Source of the DNA: Bacteroidetes bacterium UKL13-3
GTDB taxonomy: Bacteria; Bacteroidota; Bacteroidia; UKL13-3
Length of the DNA: 64,000 bases
Reading direction: 5' to 3'
Assembly: GCA_001602415.1 (NCBI GenBank)
Contig: CP012155.1
Coordinates: 248,001-312,000 of the forward strand
The position numbers and the translations under genes are program-made. Under the pieces are notes generated by a model that did not search any database, had not been told where the DNA came from, and saw only the letters and a program-made list of their open reading frames with translations. Positions 37,193-48,407 of the stretch are shown one piece after another (within the stretch, counting starts at the first letter, position 1; each line of letters begins with the position of its first letter).

Positions 37193-38389
37193 ATGTACGG
37201 AGCACTTAAACAACATTTACAAAAAGAATTGGCGGATATTGAATCTGCGGGTTTGTATAAAAAGGAACGCATTATCTTATCGGAGCAAGGTGCCGAAATT
37301 GAATTGAATACAGGTGAAAAGGTATTGAACTTTTGCGCCAATAACTACTTGGGATTATCTTCTCATCCGCGTGTAAAAGAAGCTGCTAAAAAAGCAATAG
37401 ATACACACGGATATGGAATGAGTTCGGTGCGTTTTATTTGCGGTACGCAGGATATTCATAAAGAGTTAGAAAAAACGATTGCCGATTTTTACGGAACAGA
37501 AGACACCATTTTGTATGCAGCAGCATTTGATGCCAATGGTGGTGTTTTTGAACCCTTGTTTCAAGAAGCGGATGCTATCATCAGTGACTCATTAAATCAT
37601 GCAAGTATTATTGATGGGGTGAGGTTGTGTAAAGCCCAACGGTATCGTTATACCAATAATGATATGGCCGACTTGGAAGCGCAGTTGATTGCAGCAACAG
37701 CAAAAGGTGCGCGTTTTAAAATTATTGTTACCGATGGAGTTTTTAGCATGGATGGTTACGTGGCGCAAATGGACAAAATTTGTGACCTGGCTGATAAATA
37801 TGATGCTCTCGTTATGACAGACGAATGCCATAGTGCGGGATTTATCGGTAAAACCGGAAGAGGTGTTCCTGAGTTGTGTGGTGTAATGGATAGAGTTGAT
37901 ATCATTACAGGAACATTAGGAAAAGCATTAGGCGGTGCCATGGGTGGCTACACTACGGGTAAAAAAGAGATTATTGAATTATTGCGTCAGCGTTCTCGTC
38001 CTTACTTATTTTCAAACTCATTGGCTCCTTCAATTGTAGGTGCAAGTATTGAAGTGTTTAAATTATTGAGTGAAAGCACGGCCTTACGTGATAAAGTTGA
38101 AGCCAATGTAACCCAATTTAAAGCGGGCATGGAAGCTGCAGGGTTTGATTTAAGAGGTGGTGCAAGTGCCATTGTTCCGGTAATGTTATACGATGCAAAA
38201 CTTGCCCAAGAGTTTGCACATAAATTATTGGCCGAAGGTATTTATGTGATAGGGTTCTTTTATCCTGTTGTTCCAAAAGATTTGGCACGTATTCGTGTTC
38301 AGTTATCTGCAGCGCACGAACCAGCACATATTGATAAAGCAATTGCTGCGTTTATAAAAGTAGGTAAAGATTTAGGCGTGATCAGCTAA
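37193..38389 (+). CDS. kbl: Glycine C-acetyltransferase (2-amino-3-ketobutyrate CoA ligase)
   Basis: 398 residues of the alpha-oxoamine synthase family; the PLP lysine Lys244 in [15 protein letters not shown] has the same number as in E. coli Kbl. Other marks are [43 protein letters not shown] and [15 protein letters not shown]. With threonine dehydrogenase (not in this window) it degrades threonine to glycine and acetyl-CoA. It ends at a strong terminator. Confidence 0.95.
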
Positions 38390-38404: not shown

Positions 38405-38446
38405 CAGAAAAGCCACAGTGTATTGACGCTGTGGCTTTTCTGTTTT
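38405..38446 (+). terminator. Rho-independent terminator after kbl
   Basis: A perfect 14-bp stem: CAGAAAAGCCACAG with CTGTGGCTTTTCTG around a 10-base loop, then TTTT. It isolates the following TonB receptor as its own transcription unit. Confidence 0.9.
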
Positions 38447-38494: not shown

Positions 38495-38560
38495 TTAATA
38501 TTAGCTTAACATATCATTGACTTTCAATTAACTTAACATTAATGTTTGGTTAACCGTTGC
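38495..38560 (+). promoter_or_regulatory. Six tandem 11-bp direct repeats (TTAAC-type), PhoB/PhoP-like operator
   Basis: TTAAT (38495), TTAAC (38506), TTGAC (38517), TTAAC (38528), TTAAT (38539) and TTAAC (38550) stand at exact 11-bp steps. The last lies 26 bp before the T of the -7 element. Direct repeats with one-helical-turn spacing are how OmpR/PhoB-type regulators bind; TTAACA-N5 repeats are the Bacillus PhoP box pattern. The same array with the same promoter distance precedes the 41670 gene. The identity of the regulator is inference. Confidence 0.8.
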
Positions 38561-38575
38561 CAAGCTTAAGCAAGG

Positions 38576-38583
38576 TACTTTTG
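38576..38583 (+). promoter_or_regulatory. TAnnTTTG -7 element of the TonB receptor gene
   Basis: TACTTTTG matches the consensus exactly, 19 bp before the ATG at 38602. The direct-repeat array takes the place of a -33 element, as in activator-dependent promoters. Confidence 0.65.
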
Positions 38584-38601: not shown

Positions 38602-41472
38602 ATGATTATAGTTCGACTAAAGTATCTTTTTACATTGCTTATCAGTATGATAGCAATATCGGTTTCGGCACAAACAGGCCGTATCGGGGGAAAGATTATT
38701 GACAAAAAAACAGGGGAAGAGTTAATCGGTGTTTCCGTTCAAATTGAAGGAACAAGCATCGGTGCAGCTACTGATTTTGAAGGAAAATTTCTGATTAACA
38801 ATGTCTCTGCGGGTACTTACAATATTGTAGTGAGTTACATCTCTTATAAAAAGAAGGTATTATCAGGTATTGAAGTAAAAGCTAAAGAAACAGCAATTCT
38901 TAATATATCACTAGAAGAAGCTACAAAAGAGTTGAATGAAATCGTAATTCGTGGTGAAGTGAAAAAAGAGAGTGCCAATGCAGTATTGATTCAACAACGT
39001 AATTCAGTGTCGGTGGCAAGTGGTGTTTCAGCCGATTTAATCAAGAAAACGCCAGATCGTACCACCGCTGATGTTATTAAGCGTGTGAGCGGAGCTTCCA
39101 TTCAAGATAATAAGTTTGCTGTTGTGCGTGGGTTGGGTGATAGATACAACATGGCTTTTATTAATGGAGCACCTTTAGCAAGTTCAGAAAGCGATCGTAA
39201 AGCATTTTCATTGGATTTAATCCCAGCAGCTGTTTTAGACAATATGATGATAGTAAAAACAGCCACGCCCGATATGCCTGCTGATTTTGCGGGTGGTTTT
39301 ATCCAAATCACAACTAAAGATATTCCTGATGAAGATCAATATACTGTTGGGCTTTCAATGGGAGCGCACTCACTTACCACATTTAAGGAAGGATTTTCAA
39401 GTCAGAATGCGAGCTCAACAGATTGGTTGGGTTATGATAGTAAAAGAGGAATTCCCTCTGGAGTAATGAAAACAGAAGAAGGACGTAATGCAACCAACAG
39501 CCAGTTAATAGATCAAACCAAGTTGTTTGATAACAATTTTAAGCCAACTCAAGAGTCAAGTATTGCACCTAACGTAAGTTTTAATATGTCGGGTTCAAAA
39601 AGATTCAAATCGGAGCACAACGAGTTTGGTGTGTTGGGAGCAATAGCATATAGCAATAACTATAGGTACACGCCTTTTGTGGTAAACGAACCACCATTAT
39701 CAGATGAGCAACGCTCAATGGATTTTAAAACGGCCGATTACAAAACATATAATTATAGCAACTATCGCAGAAGCGTAAACTTGGGAGGTGTACTAAATCT
39801 TTCAATGAAATTGGGTAAAAACAACAAGTTCTCTTTTAAAAACTTATATACCCAAAATGGAGAAGATCAAACCATTAAGCGCGATGGTATTCAATACGTG
39901 AACCATGCTGCTCCATTTGTTAACCAAGACAATAAAGTTTTTAACGATTATTTGTACCAATACCAGCAGAGCAAAATGTATACTGGCCAGTTTACGGGTG
40001 AGCACTTCATTACAGCTTCGAAAATCAAGGTTAAGTACACATTGGGCTACACAGCAATAAGCCGTTCGTTACCCGACTTTAAACGATTAATTTACCAAGC
40101 TGATAAACAAATTGGAGACACTGTTTACCCACGACCAATTGTACAGTTGAATCCGGATGCGAATGCATTTACCCCAAACCAAACAGGACGTTTCAGTTCA
40201 CAATTACAAGAAACTTCTCCATCGGCCAAGTACGAAGTTTCAGTTCCATTTAAGATGTTTAAAAAATCGGAAGTAAAGTTTGGTGGATTTCACCAGGTTC
40301 GTACCCGTACGTTTAATGCGCGAAACTTCTTATTTACTTACGACAATAACAACCTCGATCCATCAAGATATGGCGTAGCAGGATTGCAAGGTCCTGATTC
40401 GGTATTTGGGGCTTCAAATATCGACAGTAGTTTATTTTTCCAAAGAGAAACAACCCAAGGATCTGATAGCTATACAGCAAGTTCACGCATTAATGCAGGG
40501 TTTGTTATGTTTGATAATAAAATCACCAATCGTTTCAGAATGATTTGGGGTGCACGCATCGAACAGTTTAACCAAAGAGTAAGTTCGGAAGCAATCGGCA
40601 AAAAGGTAGATATCAATAAAACCGTTACAGATGTGTTGCCTTCATTGAACATCATTTACGAATTAACCGAAAACCAAAATTTACGTTTCAGTTATTCAAG
40701 AACATTATCGCGCCCAGAATTTAGAGAGTTTGCTCCGCTTGCCTTTTATGAAGTAAACTATAATTCAATTATCATTGGTAACGATACTTTGGTTCGTGCA
40801 CTTATTGATAATATTGATTTTAAATGGGAATTTTTCCCATCGGCAGCACAAACCATTTCGATCAATCCGTTTTATAAACGCTTTACCAACCCTGTTGAAA
40901 TGATTGTTGTTCCCAATCCTTCATTCAGAAACTTTAGTTATCAAAATGCAAGTTCGGCCGAGAATATTGGTGTAGAAATTGAAACAAGATTATTACTTAT
41001 TGGATTGGATAAGCTTGCAGGAACAAACATTTTTAAGGACATGACGCTTTATGGAAATTTAGCACTCATCAACTCTCAAGTAAATTTAACCAACTCAGGT
41101 GCAGGATTGAGTAAACGTCCGTTGCAAGGTCAATCACCCTATGTATTTAATATGGGTGTAAACTACAATAATCCTAAACTATTTGATATAGCCGTGAACG
41201 TAAACCGGGTAGGAAGAAGAATTGCGTTTGTGGGTACAAGTGAAAACCAAACAATATGGGAAAATCCGAGAACAGTTTTGGATATCAGTTTATCAAAAAC
41301 ACTATTCAAGCGTTTGCAAGCTAAGTTTGTTGTTGGAGATGTATTTGCGCAGCGTTTGGTGTTTTACCACGATTTGAATAGAAATGGTTCATTTGATGAA
41401 GGAACGGATGCTGATGCATTTAATTATCGCTATGGAAGATCATTTACCATTGGTTTAAGTTATACACTATAA
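38602..41472 (+). CDS. TonB-dependent receptor with N-terminal carboxypeptidase-regulatory-like domain
   Basis: 956 residues. Signal peptide (LFTLLISMIAISVSAQ), a CarboxypepD_reg-like beta-sandwich (about 25-110: GGKIIDKKTGEELIGVSVQIEG, TDFEGKF), plug domain (about 130-235, with VVRGLGDRYNMAFINGAPL and DMPADFAGGFIQI), then the 22-strand barrel ending YGRSFTIGLSYTL. It is an energised outer-membrane importer. No SusD-like lipoprotein is adjacent, so it is not a typical polysaccharide-utilisation pair. It shares its operator architecture with the following T9SS protein gene, and a phosphate- or phosphoester-related substrate is inferred from that. No lesions were seen. Confidence 0.92.
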   Translation: MIIVRLKYLFTLLISMIAISVSAQTGRIGGKIIDKKTGEELIGVSVQIEGTSIGAATDFEGKFLINNVSAGTYNIVVSYISYKKKVLSGIEVKAKETAILNISLEEATKELNEIVIRGEVKKESANAVLIQQRNSVSVASGVSADLIKKTPDRTTADVIKRVSGASIQDNKFAVVRGLGDRYNMAFINGAPLASSESDRKAFSLDLIPAAVLDNMMIVKTATPDMPADFAGGFIQITTKDIPDEDQYTVGLSMGAHSLTTFKEGFSSQNASSTDWLGYDSKRGIPSGVMKTEEGRNATNSQLIDQTKLFDNNFKPTQESSIAPNVSFNMSGSKRFKSEHNEFGVLGAIAYSNNYRYTPFVVNEPPLSDEQRSMDFKTADYKTYNYSNYRRSVNLGGVLNLSMKLGKNNKFSFKNLYTQNGEDQTIKRDGIQYVNHAAPFVNQDNKVFNDYLYQYQQSKMYTGQFTGEHFITASKIKVKYTLGYTAISRSLPDFKRLIYQADKQIGDTVYPRPIVQLNPDANAFTPNQTGRFSSQLQETSPSAKYEVSVPFKMFKKSEVKFGGFHQVRTRTFNARNFLFTYDNNNLDPSRYGVAGLQGPDSVFGASNIDSSLFFQRETTQGSDSYTASSRINAGFVMFDNKITNRFRMIWGARIEQFNQRVSSEAIGKKVDINKTVTDVLPSLNIIYELTENQNLRFSYSRTLSRPEFREFAPLAFYEVNYNSIIIGNDTLVRALIDNIDFKWEFFPSAAQTISINPFYKRFTNPVEMIVVPNPSFRNFSYQNASSAENIGVEIETRLLLIGLDKLAGTNIFKDMTLYGNLALINSQVNLTNSGAGLSKRPLQGQSPYVFNMGVNYNNPKLFDIAVNVNRVGRRIAFVGTSENQTIWENPRTVLDISLSKTLFKRLQAKFVVGDVFAQRLVFYHDLNRNGSFDEGTDADAFNYRYGRSFTIGLSYTL

Positions 41473-41550: not shown

Positions 41551-41626
41551 TTAACACAAACTTTACGTTCAATAGAGCCTTCGTAACAAAATATTAACTT
41601 TAGCTTAATGATTGCTTCAATTGGTG
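41551..41626 (+). promoter_or_regulatory. Second array of 11-bp TTAAC-type direct repeats
   Basis: TTAAC (41551) and TTTAC (41562) form one pair. GTAAC (41583), TTAAC (41594), TTAAT (41605) and TTCAA (41616) form a second in-phase series with 11-bp steps. The TTAAT at 41605 is 26 bp before the -7 element at 41631, exactly as at 38550/38576; 41594 and 41583 match the 37- and 48-bp positions. The agreement of phase and distance at two genes is the main evidence for a common regulator. Confidence 0.72.
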
Positions 41627-41630
41627 CAGG

Positions 41631-41638
41631 TAATGTTG
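41631..41638 (+). promoter_or_regulatory. Candidate -7 element of the 41670 gene
   Basis: TAATGTTG differs from TAnnTTTG at one position, consistent with an activator-dependent promoter. The leader to the ATG at 41670 is about 30 nt. Confidence 0.5.
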
Positions 41639-41669: not shown

Positions 41670-44600
41670 ATGAAACTTAAATTAACAGCAATCATTGCAG
41701 GTTTGGCAATAAGCTTTAATGCTTACAGTCAATTCTTCGACACTGTTCCGTATGTTGGTGCATTTGGCGCTCAAGGTAGCACAAGGCCAGCGGTAACAGG
41801 TTACAATCCTGACCCAACCAATACCAATGCAGATTGGACTACTGGATGGTCAAATTTTACGCCTAATGCTACTTTGTATCCTGGTGATGCAGGTTGGGTT
41901 CCAACTGCTGCTCATCCAGCTACCAATGCAAATAAAGTAAGTGTATCAGGTGATATTTCTGTTAATACTACTTGGACAAAAAACAACTGGTACGAGGTAT
42001 CGGGAAGTGTTCATATTCTGAATGGTGCTACGTTAACAATTGAGCCGGGAACAGTTATAAGAGGAAATGTGAACAACACATTTGTGCTTTTAGTTGCAAA
42101 AGGAGGTAAACTAAACGCAATTGGAACATTGCAACAACCAATTGTTATGACTTCAGGTCGTACAGCTGGTAGCCGTGTTCGTGGTGATTGGGGAGGTGTA
42201 TTGCTTATTGGTAATGCCCACACCAATACAGCCAACGGTGTTCGTCAGTATGAGGCATTGCCTTCTGATCCATTGGCTTTGTATGGTGGAGGTCCCAATT
42301 ACAATGATGCAGACAACTCTGGTACATTACGTTATTTACGTATTGAGTATGCTGGATATAACTTCTTGCCTGATCAAGAAATTAACGGATTAACATTTGC
42401 CGGAGTAGGTTACGGAACACGTGCAGATTATATCCAGGTGAGTTTCGCAAACGATGACTCCTATGAGTGGTTTGGTGGAGCTTCTAATCATAAATACCTA
42501 ATCTCATTCGCAGGAACGGATGATGATTTTGACATGGACGAAGGATACAATGGTAAATGTCAATTTTTATTAGGTGTTAGAAATCCTGCCGTATTTGAGA
42601 CGTCTCCTTCGGGAACATCAAACGGACTAGAACATGATAACAATACCGGTTTGGGTAGCGCAGGTCAGGTTACTCCGGGCGTAAATGCCCCTGAGCCTAA
42701 AACTGCTCCCGTTATTTCAAACATGACATTGTTAGGTCCGATACGTGCAGGTGAAAACAGAAACACTTTGGCAACTACAGCACGTGCCCGTTTTGGACGT
42801 GCATTGGAGTTAAGAACGAATGTTTCAACTTCAGTGTTTAACTCGCTTATCGGTGGTTATCCGGAAGGAATGCGTATGGTTCATCCGAATGTTGCCATTC
42901 AACCTTCTGTACAACAGCGTGCATTAAACGATGAAATGACTATCCGTAATTCAGTATTAGCATCTGCCTTTACAACAGATGGATTATACAGTGCTACCAA
43001 TACCCCAACAGGTGTAACATTTAATGTTGCAAATTGGTGGTTTGGTGGAGCTACACCAGGTTTTACAACTTCAGGAAACGATACAGCCAATACAATTGCT
43101 AAATTTGGAATTTTAGCTCCTTCATACACGGGTTCTGCAGGTGGTGCATTAAATCAAATTAATTTTTCAACGGTAAATTATATGTTGTCGAGCAACAGTC
43201 CTTACAAGGAAGCAGCTAGATTTAACACAGCAAAAATACCTACCATTGCTCAACCAACTGTAGCATTGAATCCTTCAGTACTTCCAATTTTTAATCAAAT
43301 TGTTGGAACACCTAGCCCGGTTCAAGCTGTTGTGTTATCTGCAGCAAATTTAGCGGGTAACATTAATGCAACTGTTGGAACTAATTTTGAAGTTTCACTA
43401 AGTCGCACTGCAGGTTGGGCAAGTAACGTAACTAAAAATGGACCATCTGCAAACGATACTATTTTTGTTCGTTACAACAGAACCAATGCTGGTTCAAATA
43501 CAGCTTTGTTAACGGTTTCATCGTCAATATCATCAGATTTCACGCCTCTTAACATCAATTTAGCAGGTTCGGCAACGGCTCCTGCTTCGCCATTGTTTGG
43601 TGTAGATAAATCAACAGTAAGTTTTTCTACAACAACAGGTACAGCATCTGCTGAAAAACTTGTAAACGTTTCAGGTCGCTTCTTGGTTGGTAACAATATT
43701 AGCGTAACAGCATCTGCTAACTTTGAGGTTTCTACAACCACTGGTTCAGGTTTTGCGAGCACTGCCACAATTACAGGAGCAGCTTTAGTTAATTTACCTT
43801 TGTATGTGCGTTTTGTTCCAACGGGATCATCTGCTGCAACAGGAACAATTACCTTATCTGCCAATGGTGTTGATGACGTAATTATTAATGTAAGCGGATC
43901 GGTTACAGGTCTTGCATCAGTTACCGTTTCTCCTACATCTTACCCGCAATGGCAAGTTGCTACACTAACCAATTCGTTGGCATATCCATTAACTGTTACA
44001 GGTGCTAACCTTACAGGCGATTTAAAAGTAAAAGCTCCGAATACAGACTTTAAGTTAAGTACTGATTCGGCATTTACCAATCCGGTTGATTCAATCATGC
44101 TTACTCCTGCATCAGGTGCAGTTGCAGCAACAAAAGTATATGTTCGTTTCCAAGCTCCCGCGGCTTCGCCATCAACTGGTAACGTAGCTGTTTCGGCAAC
44201 TGGAGCAACAACTGTTAACTCAGCAGTAAGTGGTTTATCCGTTGCGGCAAATGCTCGCAGAATAATTGTTGCTAATGCTCCAAGTAATTCCATTACTATG
44301 GAAACAGTTTTTGGAACACCATCAGCTTCTCGTTCATTAACATTAGCAGGTGCCAATTTAACTGATAAGTTAACCGTAGCATACGGAACAGAAGGTTTCC
44401 AAGTTTCTGTTGATAATACAAATTGGCTTTCTTCTTTAACTATTGATACGATTGCTGGAGGTAACATTAACCCAACTCCAATCTGGGTTCGTTACAATCC
44501 GTCTGTAATTGGAACATCAGGGGCTCAACAATTAATTTTAAGCAGCACAGGAGCAACTGCAATTAATATTACGGTAAGTGGTTTATCTATTCCATTGGTA

Positions 44601-45548
44601 ACTGCAGCTCCAGCTACACTGCCTGAGTTTGCAACTGTTGTAGGTATTCCTTCATACACATCAACTATTGATGTAAGCGGTGTTCGCTTATTAGCAGGTG
44701 TTATTGTGAATGTAACACCAAACTCTGGATTTGAAGTTTCTACAAATGCATCATCGGGTTTTGGTGAATCTGTTTCTATCCCTAAATCAGGTAGTGCTTT
44801 AGCAGCAACTCCTGTATACTTCCGTTACAATCCAAAAGTTGCAGGTTCGGTTACAGCAACTGCATCATTTAGCACACAATCAGGTCCTTCTTCGCTTATA
44901 ACATTAAACGGATTTGCAGTTGAGTTACCAGCACCATCATTATCGTTGTCAACAGCATCAATCAGTTTTGATACTACATCAAATACACCAACTCCAACAA
45001 CTGCTAAAACGTTTACCGTTAATGCAACTAATTTACGCGATTCACTTTCGGTAACAGTTGGCGGTGATTTTGAATTATCACCTGATAATACAACCTGGAA
45101 AAAAGACTGGAAGTTAGCTGGTGATGTAAATGGTGCAATTGCAAATCTTACTTTGTATTGCCGCTTTAACCGCACTACTGCCGGTACTTCAACCAGCACC
45201 ATTGATTTTAAAAGTGAGGCATTAGCTGCTCAAAAAATTGCAGTATCTGGAACACTTACATTGGTAGGATTGAAAGAACTTTACAACAACATCAGTACTT
45301 TTACTATGTTCCCTAACCCAGCACAAAATGAGGTTGTTTTAGATTTTACGTTGGATAAAGCTGCTGAGATGTCGATATCAGTTATTGATGTAACTGGAAA
45401 AGTTGTGAAAGAAGTTTCGGCAGTGAAATTCCTCTCAGGTTCAAACACAACAACCATTGATGCATCTGACTTAAACAATGGATTTTACTTTGTAAACATA
45501 CATTCATCAGAAGGAAGTAAAACAACTCGTTTGATGATTGCTAAATAA
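41670..45548 (+). CDS. Large secreted T9SS protein: beta-helix domain plus six ~111-residue repeats
   Basis: 1292 residues. Signal peptide (LTAIIAGLAISFNAYSQ). Residues ~90-500 are beta-helix-like with VHILNGATLTIEPGTVIRG, RGDWGGVLLIGNA, LRYLRIEYAGY, an aromatic/acidic block NDDSYEWFGGASNHKYL then DDDFDMDEGYNG, and a second HDNN segment. Residues ~531-1197 hold six Ig-like repeats, each with a LT..GANL..L.V/TF.VS.....W signature and a closing W/Y-V-R-Y/F. A type A sorting domain (FTMFPNPAQNEVVLDF ... GFYFVNIHSSEG) ends the protein. Secreted or surface-held; no catalytic site was identified, but the Asp-rich block could bind metal. It shares its operator type with the upstream TonB receptor, suggesting a capture partner. 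Confidence 0.9.
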   Translation: MKLKLTAIIAGLAISFNAYSQFFDTVPYVGAFGAQGSTRPAVTGYNPDPTNTNADWTTGWSNFTPNATLYPGDAGWVPTAAHPATNANKVSVSGDISVNTTWTKNNWYEVSGSVHILNGATLTIEPGTVIRGNVNNTFVLLVAKGGKLNAIGTLQQPIVMTSGRTAGSRVRGDWGGVLLIGNAHTNTANGVRQYEALPSDPLALYGGGPNYNDADNSGTLRYLRIEYAGYNFLPDQEINGLTFAGVGYGTRADYIQVSFANDDSYEWFGGASNHKYLISFAGTDDDFDMDEGYNGKCQFLLGVRNPAVFETSPSGTSNGLEHDNNTGLGSAGQVTPGVNAPEPKTAPVISNMTLLGPIRAGENRNTLATTARARFGRALELRTNVSTSVFNSLIGGYPEGMRMVHPNVAIQPSVQQRALNDEMTIRNSVLASAFTTDGLYSATNTPTGVTFNVANWWFGGATPGFTTSGNDTANTIAKFGILAPSYTGSAGGALNQINFSTVNYMLSSNSPYKEAARFNTAKIPTIAQPTVALNPSVLPIFNQIVGTPSPVQAVVLSAANLAGNINATVGTNFEVSLSRTAGWASNVTKNGPSANDTIFVRYNRTNAGSNTALLTVSSSISSDFTPLNINLAGSATAPASPLFGVDKSTVSFSTTTGTASAEKLVNVSGRFLVGNNISVTASANFEVSTTTGSGFASTATITGAALVNLPLYVRFVPTGSSAATGTITLSANGVDDVIINVSGSVTGLASVTVSPTSYPQWQVATLTNSLAYPLTVTGANLTGDLKVKAPNTDFKLSTDSAFTNPVDSIMLTPASGAVAATKVYVRFQAPAASPSTGNVAVSATGATTVNSAVSGLSVAANARRIIVANAPSNSITMETVFGTPSASRSLTLAGANLTDKLTVAYGTEGFQVSVDNTNWLSSLTIDTIAGGNINPTPIWVRYNPSVIGTSGAQQLILSSTGATAINITVSGLSIPLVTAAPATLPEFATVVGIPSYTSTIDVSGVRLLAGVIVNVTPNSGFEVSTNASSGFGESVSIPKSGSALAATPVYFRYNPKVAGSVTATASFSTQSGPSSLITLNGFAVELPAPSLSLSTASISFDTTSNTPTPTTAKTFTVNATNLRDSLSVTVGGDFELSPDNTTWKKDWKLAGDVNGAIANLTLYCRFNRTTAGTSTSTIDFKSEALAAQKIAVSGTLTLVGLKELYNNISTFTMFPNPAQNEVVLDFTLDKAAEMSISVIDVTGKVVKEVSAVKFLSGSNTTTIDASDLNNGFYFVNIHSSEGSKTTRLMIAK

Positions 45549-46698: not shown

Positions 46699-48407
46699 CT
46701 ACTCATATTCATATTTTGTATATTCTCAATTGTTGTTTTTGCTCAAACACCTACTGTTATAAAAGGTGTTTTAAGAGATAAAAAAACTGGAGAACGTTTA
46801 ATTGGTGCAACAGTATCAATTAAAGGTACAAGCATAGGCACATCAACCAATTTTGATGGTGAGTTTACGTTGAAATCTCCCCAAGCATTGCCAGTTATTT
46901 TGGTTGCCAGTTATATAGGTTACGCCTCCCAAGAAGTCACTGTAAGTAGTAGCACAAAGCCTGTTGATATTAAAATAGAGGAAAGTACCCAACAGTTAAA
47001 AGATATAGAGATAAGAGATACGAGAGTTACCGAAAAGCAAAAGCAAGCTCCACTAACTGTAGAAACAATGGATGCAATTGCTATCAAAGAAACACCTGCA
47101 GCTAATTTTTATGAAGGACTGTCTCACTTAAAGGGTGTTGATTTAACATCGGCTAGTATTGGCTTAAAATTATTAATACTCGTGGGTTTAACAGTACATC
47201 ACCCGTTCGAAGTTTGCAGTTAATTGATGGGGTATATAATCAAAGTCCGGGACTTAATTTTTCATTGGGTAATTTTTTGGGCGCAAGTGAACTAGATATT
47301 CAAAAAGTGGATTTAGTAGTTGGTGCAAGCGGATCCTATTTTGGCCCGAATGCATTTAACGGTGTAATTAATATGCAAACCCAAAGTCCGTTTCAATTCC
47401 CTGGATTAAGTGCAAGCGTGAAAGTTGGGGAACGTAGCATGGCAGAAACAGCTGTGAGATGGGCAGAAGTGTTCAAGAATAAAAAGGGCGAAGATAAGTT
47501 TGCGTATAAGTTCAATATGTTTTACATGCGAGCACATGACTGGGAGGCAACTAATTATAGTCCAACAAGTCAATCGCCTACCAACGAATCAAATGCTGGT
47601 GGCTATGATGCTGTTAATAGATACGGATATGAAGATGTAAGTCAGTTTTTTTACACGGCACCTTCGGGTGTTCCATTTGTTGGAAGAGGTTATTATTTGA
47701 GAGACGGATACAATGAGAAAGATTTGGTAGATTACAATACCCGCAATACCAAATTGAGTGGATCTGTTCACTATAAGCTAACTAAAGATATTGAAGCAAT
47801 TTACGCTTCAAATTTTAGTACAGGAACAACTGTTTACCAAGGTGATAATCGTTTTAGTCTTAAAGATGTTAAGTTATATCAAAATAGGATTGAAGTTCGG
47901 AAAGAGAATAAATTTTTTGTAAGAGCTTACGTTACAAATGAGGATGCCGGAAATACGTATGATGCATACAACACTGCTATCGTAATGCAAAACAAAGCCA
48001 AGACTGATGAGGCTTGGGGCAAGGATTATAATAACGGGTTATCGAGTAATTTAGACCCCTATCTTCAAGGTTGGCTCCCGCGAAACCTAAACAGTGGTTT
48101 GATGTTGAGTGGTATTCCGGGGGTAAACAACCAACGATTAAATTATATAGAAAATTATTGGCGTACAACCTTAAATGATTCGCTCTTTTATTTCCATGGT
48201 TTAGCTAGGCAAAAAGCTAGTGGACAGCCATCATCATCCGGAGGTAATCATGCCAGATTTGTTCCGGGCACCTATGAATTTGATACAGCTTTTCAGAATA
48301 CCAAATCAACATACAACACCCAAGGAGGATCGAGAATTTACGACATGTCGGCATTGTATCATATTGCAGCAGTAAATTGTGAGGCTTATTGTCAATTTTT
48401 TATGTAA
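46699..48407 (+). pseudogene. TonB-dependent receptor, broken by start loss, frameshift and 3' truncation
   Basis: The frame opens with LLIFIFCIFSIVVFAQ, a signal peptide with no ATG/GTG/TTG in frame and a TGA directly before it. A carboxypeptidase-regulatory-like domain follows (KGVLRDKKTGERLIGATVSIKG). Near 47162 one T is missing from GGCTTTAAAATT, so the frame runs out at 47223; restoring it gives GFKIINTRGFNSTSPVRS and joins to QLIDGVYNQSPG, the plug domain. The second frame then continues to 48407, ending abruptly at about 570 residues (ALYHIAA then CEAYCQFFM), well short of a full barrel. Three independent defects make it non-functional. Confidence 0.85.

Follow-up and report, generated by a model that had tools for sequence, protein, structure and literature searches.

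A phased array of six half-sites lies ahead of a TonB-dependent receptor gene

We analyzed a 64-kb stretch (G000:C1:248001-312000) of the 3.24-Mb single-contig genome of Bacteroidetes bacterium UKL13-3, referred to here as the window. Between kbl (37193-38389) and a TonB-dependent receptor gene on the plus strand (38602..41472; ATG at 38602), six TTRAY half-sites occupy positions 38495..38554 of the plus strand (TTAAT at 38495, TTAAC at 38506, TTGAC at 38517, TTAAC at 38528, TTAAT at 38539, and TTAAC at 38550), with a step of 11 bp between neighbors throughout. The half-sites are followed by TACTTTTG (38576..38583, plus strand), which begins 26 bp past the start of the last half-site and conforms to TAnnTTTG, the -7 consensus of Bacteroidota sigma-A promoters (PMC9723704). 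Re-reading the sequence confirmed the six pentamer positions, their spacing, and the distance to TACTTTTG given in a preliminary description of this DNA, which had also called the array exact 11-bp direct repeats; this wording was too strong, as the 6-bp spacers between the half-sites differ and the TTRAY pentamer alone recurs. A TTG at 38557..38559 (plus strand), adjoining the last half-site and 19 bp before the -7 element, may be the -33 element of the receptor promoter, as judged from sequence. On the other side of the array, a terminator-like hairpin of the upstream gene recognized by eye (AAAAGCCACAG...CTGTGGCTTTT, approximately 38408..38440, plus strand) sets the receptor promoter apart from kbl.

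The genome is 62% AT and TTRAY occurs at 0.8% of positions, which favors the alternative that the array is a chance AT-rich repeat or a UP-like element serving no specific regulator. Against this alternative, only about 2e-6 runs of six are expected per genome from the local TTRAY frequency. Runs of at least four TTRAY at an 11-bp step were confined in the whole genome to the array at 38495-38554, and no run of four was found in the window at any other step from 6 to 29 bp. Three-copy runs elsewhere in the genome, counted without requiring a -7 element, amounted to background (two sites versus four for the backward control).

By its domains (CarboxypepD_reg-like, Plug, and beta-barrel), the 956-aa product of the receptor gene is an ordinary TonB-dependent receptor. 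The adjacent gene (41670..45548, plus strand) encodes a secreted protein of 1292 aa with a C-terminal type 9 secretion system (T9SS) sorting domain and an N-terminal domain that appears beta-helix-like. The AlphaFold model of this N-terminal domain (pLDDT 78) best matched right-handed beta-helix proteins, although weakly (best E value of 1.3e-3), and no structure match had an E value of <1e-3. We considered the gene pair as a possible relative of a Flavobacterium PUS, for which the fold match was weak; the N-terminal domain may be related to the low-Pi "F-form" type, and the beta-helix-like model agrees with, without proving, kinship to the F-form lipoproteins of F. johnsoniae (IPR011050). Farther downstream in the window (46870-48407), overlapping open reading frames (ORFs) of 117 and 397 aa resemble one TonB receptor gene split by a frameshift.

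Searches allowing one mismatch revealed a second predicted operator of the same kind ahead of the T9SS protein gene (41583..41609, plus strand), composed of GTAAC at 41583, TTAAC at 41594, and TTAAT at 41605, again at an 11-bp step. A -7-like sequence with one mismatch to TAnnTTTG, TAATGTTG (41631..41638, plus strand), was found by the same search and by the matrix described below; it lies 26 bp past the start of the last half-site of this second operator and 39 bp before the T9SS protein ATG.

The operator-promoter signature recurs at a phosphate transporter gene in the same genome

The preliminary description had predicted a PhoB-type operator and proposed scanning the genome to see whether TTRAY at 11-bp steps located 26 bp before TAnnTTTG reaches phosphate genes. 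Our tests of the genome consisted of pattern searches and the analysis of selected stretches. The exact two-repeat form, TTRAY-N6-TTRAY-N21-TAnnTTTG, occurs twice in the genome, at the receptor promoter and at pitA, which is the only PHO4-family phosphate transporter gene that the genome contains. With one mismatch allowed, the best further site close before a start codon was 41594-41638, 32 bp before the T9SS protein gene; tilS also has a one-mismatch site, with a poorer first unit.

We also scanned 242,648 positions of the genome with a matrix trained on 22 promoters, all from other genomes. The receptor promoter ranked first (38.9 bits), followed by the T9SS protein gene (27.2 bits) and the phoB promoter (10.2 bits); the best-scoring unrelated position after these reached 7.7 bits. 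The phoB promoter, whose units are TTAAC, TTAAA, and TTAAT, is a weak site without a clean -7 element. By this three-unit matrix, pitA reached only 3.1 bits because its site contains just two units. No pstC was detectable in this genome.

Arrays are conserved at the receptor gene pair in related lineages and are phased with the promoter

Four genomes of the same family contain arrays of four to five perfect units between kbl and a receptor orthologue (about 43 to 44% identical over its length), each with a relative of the T9SS protein encoded downstream. A genome of the same genus has only two perfect half-sites, and the array is degenerate or absent at many receptor promoters of the family. 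In four genomes of an independent family (f19), a receptor/secreted-protein pair and phoB-phoR diverge from a shared intergenic region that contains the array, with four units directed toward the receptor gene and three toward phoB. An assignment of f19 to Flavobacterium was rejected, since its members are named as uncultured Bacteroidetes metagenome-assembled genomes (MAGs), so that the connection with F. johnsoniae is one of gene order and of domain content and not of identity. At one related locus (L103), a glycosyltransferase gene adjoins phoR and the receptor domains (PF07715, PF13715, and PF14905) are those reported for Fjoh_0545 of the F. johnsoniae phoBR cluster that is induced at low Pi, within a similar set of genes (PMC8115612).

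A domain related to the N terminus of the T9SS protein is present in 314 of 396 Bacteroidia genomes, and we sampled 53 promoters from diverse families whose receptor genes directly precede such relatives. Of these 53 promoters, 16 had three or more of four TTRAY phased at a period of 11 bp, compared with 1 of 101 upstream regions taken as controls (Fisher, 9e-8), a P value that is too small due to relatedness and selection (10 of the 53 regions were fetched for holding an array or for close kinship, and the 16 positives include selected cases), but the pattern nonetheless spans many families. None of the 53 promoters reached this threshold at periods of 8 to 10 or 12 to 14 bp.

Distances between the repeats and the promoter, read in 54 promoters, were locked in phase. 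TTRAY began 15 bp (9 promoters), 26 bp (18), 37 bp (18), 48 bp (22), or 59 bp (11) from the -7 element T[AT]nnTTTG, and any other distance occurred in at most three promoters. With the window left out, 74 of 97 TTRAY/-7 pairs shared a single phase (4 mod 11). The consensus of the unit is TTAACATTnnn.

Phosphate-linked genes are prominent among class-wide sites

A strict signature of three units with T[AT]nnTTTG at 26 bp occurred at 39 sites in 37 of the 396 genomes compared to one site for the backward control. No ORF of 100 aa or more contained any of the first 30 loci listed, most of which were 5 to 40 bp ahead of a start codon. Together with the specificity for a period of 11 bp and the constant phasing to the -7 element in different families, the excess over the control makes it extremely improbable that the array is a chance AT-rich repeat or UP-like element, a reading that the comparative results already disfavor.

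At least 20 of the 39 sites precede phosphate-linked genes, so that the scan reached such genes across the class as well as in the source genome. The 20 counted comprise 11 receptor/secreted-protein pairs (including that of the window), one relative of the secreted protein alone, four Porin_O_P genes, two phoB genes, one pstS-like fragment (recognized by eye at a contig end), and one sixA-ppk-ppx locus (in which ppk and ppx were assigned by eye). Two of the Porin_O_P sites belong to the arrangements phoBR|porinO/P-pstS-C-A-B (L249) and porinO/P-pit-pit (L243). Among four-copy arrays, three genomes have one before DUF47-pitA, and another lies before a pstS relative; other four-copy matches (L014, L043, G121, and G367) were rejected as tandem repeats or AT-rich noise. 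A separate pattern match in an archaeal MAG (L174) is a simple repeat.

Genes without a clear phosphate role follow about half of the 39 sites. They include T9SS protein genes, an ECF sigma/FecR/SusC operon, efflux genes at four sites in one genus, and small ORFs. Among the small ORFs, four genomes of two families (L214, L215, L236, and L238) have similar ORFs of 65 to 73 aa right behind the operator-promoter signature, and the two tested had no Pfam match. The efflux sites (L232 to L235, family f38) have TTTTAAT-type arrays with the promoter signature before a gene for an outer-membrane efflux protein, with further efflux-type genes downstream at L232 and L235; these arrays suggest that a different regulator employs a related operator. 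In five genomes of families f47 and f66 (L048 to L052), four-copy CTTTTAAT-type arrays at an 11-bp step precede genes of the SulP (sulfate permease) family, possibly as targets of another OmpR-type regulator.

A PhoB-like regulator is the best candidate for binding the array

The best PhoB candidate is encoded at G000:C1:1871164-1871820 on the minus strand, with a histidine kinase gene adjacent. It is 52 to 63% identical to seven PhoB proteins encoded beside arrays, and the RTIDVHIRKLREK stretch is identical in all eight. Its DNA-binding domain matched that of E. coli PhoB (1gxp) with an E value of 3.8e-17, and its score of 221.9 bits is below the NCBIfam PhoB equivalog cutoff of 296.2.

The genome encodes several OmpR-type regulators, and three TTRAY copies in an array on the minus strand (G000:C1:2861135-2861161) lie 5' of one of their genes, at background frequency and possibly by chance. 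The array at 38495-38554 could be an operator of another OmpR-family regulator that responds to metals, the envelope, or another nutrient, its likeness to a Pho box reflecting the 11-bp binding mode that the family shares. The arrays before RND efflux genes (four genomes of a single genus) and before SulP transporter genes (five genomes) lend this alternative some weight, as arrays of a related kind may serve other OmpR-family regulators. However, the signature in the source genome selects the receptor, pitA, and T9SS protein genes; in relatives it adjoins phoB-phoR and precedes pst and pit genes; and the remaining OmpR-type regulators of the source genome differ in the recognition-helix stretch. 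We thus consider control of the array by another member of this family quite improbable and PhoB its likely binder.

The array resembles known Pho boxes and differs from each of them

The Bacillus subtilis PhoP box consists of TTAACA-like half-sites separated by N5 at an 11-bp step and serves a Gram-positive regulon with sigma-A -35/-10 promoters. The array in the window resembles it in the TTAACA-like half-site and the 11-bp step, which is a likeness and not class membership. The Pho box of E. coli consists of two direct repeat units of 11 nt (PMC4415409). As in that system, head-to-tail 11-bp direct repeats are found directly upstream of a core promoter at fixed spacing, and the genome encodes a PhoB-subfamily regulator, whose binding here is predicted. 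Unlike the E. coli box, the array has the half-site TTAACATT and not CTGTCAT, its units being TTRAY with the consensus TTAACATTnnn; it has up to six units; and it is joined to a -33/-7 (TAnnTTTG) promoter. The targets also differ: here they are pitA and the genes for a TonB receptor and a T9SS protein, and no pstC is detectable in the genome. The cyanobacterial SphR box, in which CTTAACCT is repeated in tandem three or more times at 11 bp, has the sphX-pst, pst, and phoA-nucH operons among its targets (PMC1906773). Compared by published consensus, the window array shares with it the TTAAC core, the 11-bp step, and the number of at least three units and differs in phylum, regulator, and promoter type. 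The array thus has the TTAAC core at an 11-bp step of the TTAAC-type Pho boxes of cyanobacteria and, in likeness, Bacillus.

Closer parallels come from the same phylum. In Riemerella anatipestifer, the portion of the PhoP study available to us reports an ArcA-like DAP-seq motif, TTTAACA, with the same core as the array, an increase in PhoPR upon phosphate starvation, and binding of PhoP to a TonB receptor promoter in an electrophoretic mobility shift assay, and it states neither how many repeats there are nor how far they lie from the -7 element (PMC9603813). In Bacteroides fragilis, according to the accessible part of the report, PhoB binds the pstC promoter (a 512-bp fragment, within which that part defines no operator sequence), and pst and a phosphate/sulphate permease are PhoB dependent (PMC3547664). 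The F. johnsoniae cluster Fjoh_0541-0549 contains a TonB receptor gene followed by that of a beta-helix-type secreted protein beside phoBR, and this pair (TBDT Fjoh_0545 and FII Fjoh_0546) is strongly induced by phosphate depletion (PMC8115612). Unlike in that cluster, the pair in the window does not adjoin phoBR, and its secreted protein has a T9SS tail. The text of the F. johnsoniae report contains neither "Pho box" nor "motif," and beyond the DAP-seq motif of R. anatipestifer we found no Bacteroidota Pho box or operator definition published in the open literature.

A model for PhoB-dependent activation of the receptor gene pair

The array combines direct repeats at an 11-bp step, a fixed helical phase with the promoter, and association with phosphate genes in a genome that encodes a PhoB/PhoR-like pair. 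The signature at pitA and the arrays between phoB-phoR and the receptor pair in several lineages support the earlier prediction of a PhoB-type operator. Our preferred reading, to which we assign a probability of about 0.88 from sequence comparisons, is that the array is a Bacteroidia-type Pho box through which PhoB would activate the genes for the TonB receptor and the secreted beta-helix-like protein in phosphate limitation.

An alternative is that PhoB binds the array but responds in this lineage to a signal that is not mainly phosphate, or that it represses the receptor gene. The available part of the R. anatipestifer study describes a wide PhoP regulon of this sort, with 583 DAP-seq peaks and many non-phosphate genes regulated in both directions (PMC9603813). 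This possibility is opposed by the association of the signature with pit, pst, and porin O/P genes, by the fact that the matching Flavobacterium genes are induced at low Pi (PMC8115612), by the PhoB dependence of pst expression described in the part of the B. fragilis report cited above (PMC3547664), and by the activator-like position of the last half-site beside the -33 region, and we regard it as improbable.

According to our preferred reading of PhoB as an activator, phosphate limitation would lead the PhoR-like kinase to phosphorylate the PhoB-like regulator, and PhoB~P would bind the six half-sites head to tail, each turn of the helix presenting one unit (TTAACATTnnn) and as many as three dimers most likely being bound. 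Since the last half-site abuts the putative -33 region and keeps a constant phase relative to the -7 element, bound PhoB could recruit sigma-A RNA polymerase to the -33/-7 promoter and switch on the receptor gene. The second, weaker box would act likewise on the adjacent T9SS protein gene, and further boxes probably serve pitA and phoB itself. The receptor pair would presumably then act in acquiring phosphorus. A broader proposal, which we advance tentatively and at slightly short of even odds, is that a class-wide Bacteroidia Pho box (TTAACATTnnn, 26 bp +/- 11n from TAnnTTTG) controls the receptor and beta-helix protein as the main route of phosphorus acquisition in a genome without detectable pstC, feeding the low-affinity PitA.

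A Pho box is a known kind of operator. In the open literature that we searched, we found no account of how many repeats it has in Bacteroidia, of its unit consensus there, or of its phase with the promoter, and the PhoB operator of Bacteroidota had only been outlined. Bacteroidota contribute greatly to phosphorus recycling, and many of them have no high-affinity Pst transporter. A half-site consensus with a fixed promoter distance makes Pho regulons predictable from sequence alone, including those of uncultured lineages, and provides direct tests of the proposal that TonB receptors and the secreted beta-helix proteins paired with them form a phosphorus-scavenging system.

As a separate observation in the source genome, an identical 45-bp stretch occurs outside called ORFs at G000:C1:791935(-), 1724969(-), 2146561(+), and 2926179(+) and is probably a repeated or mobile element.
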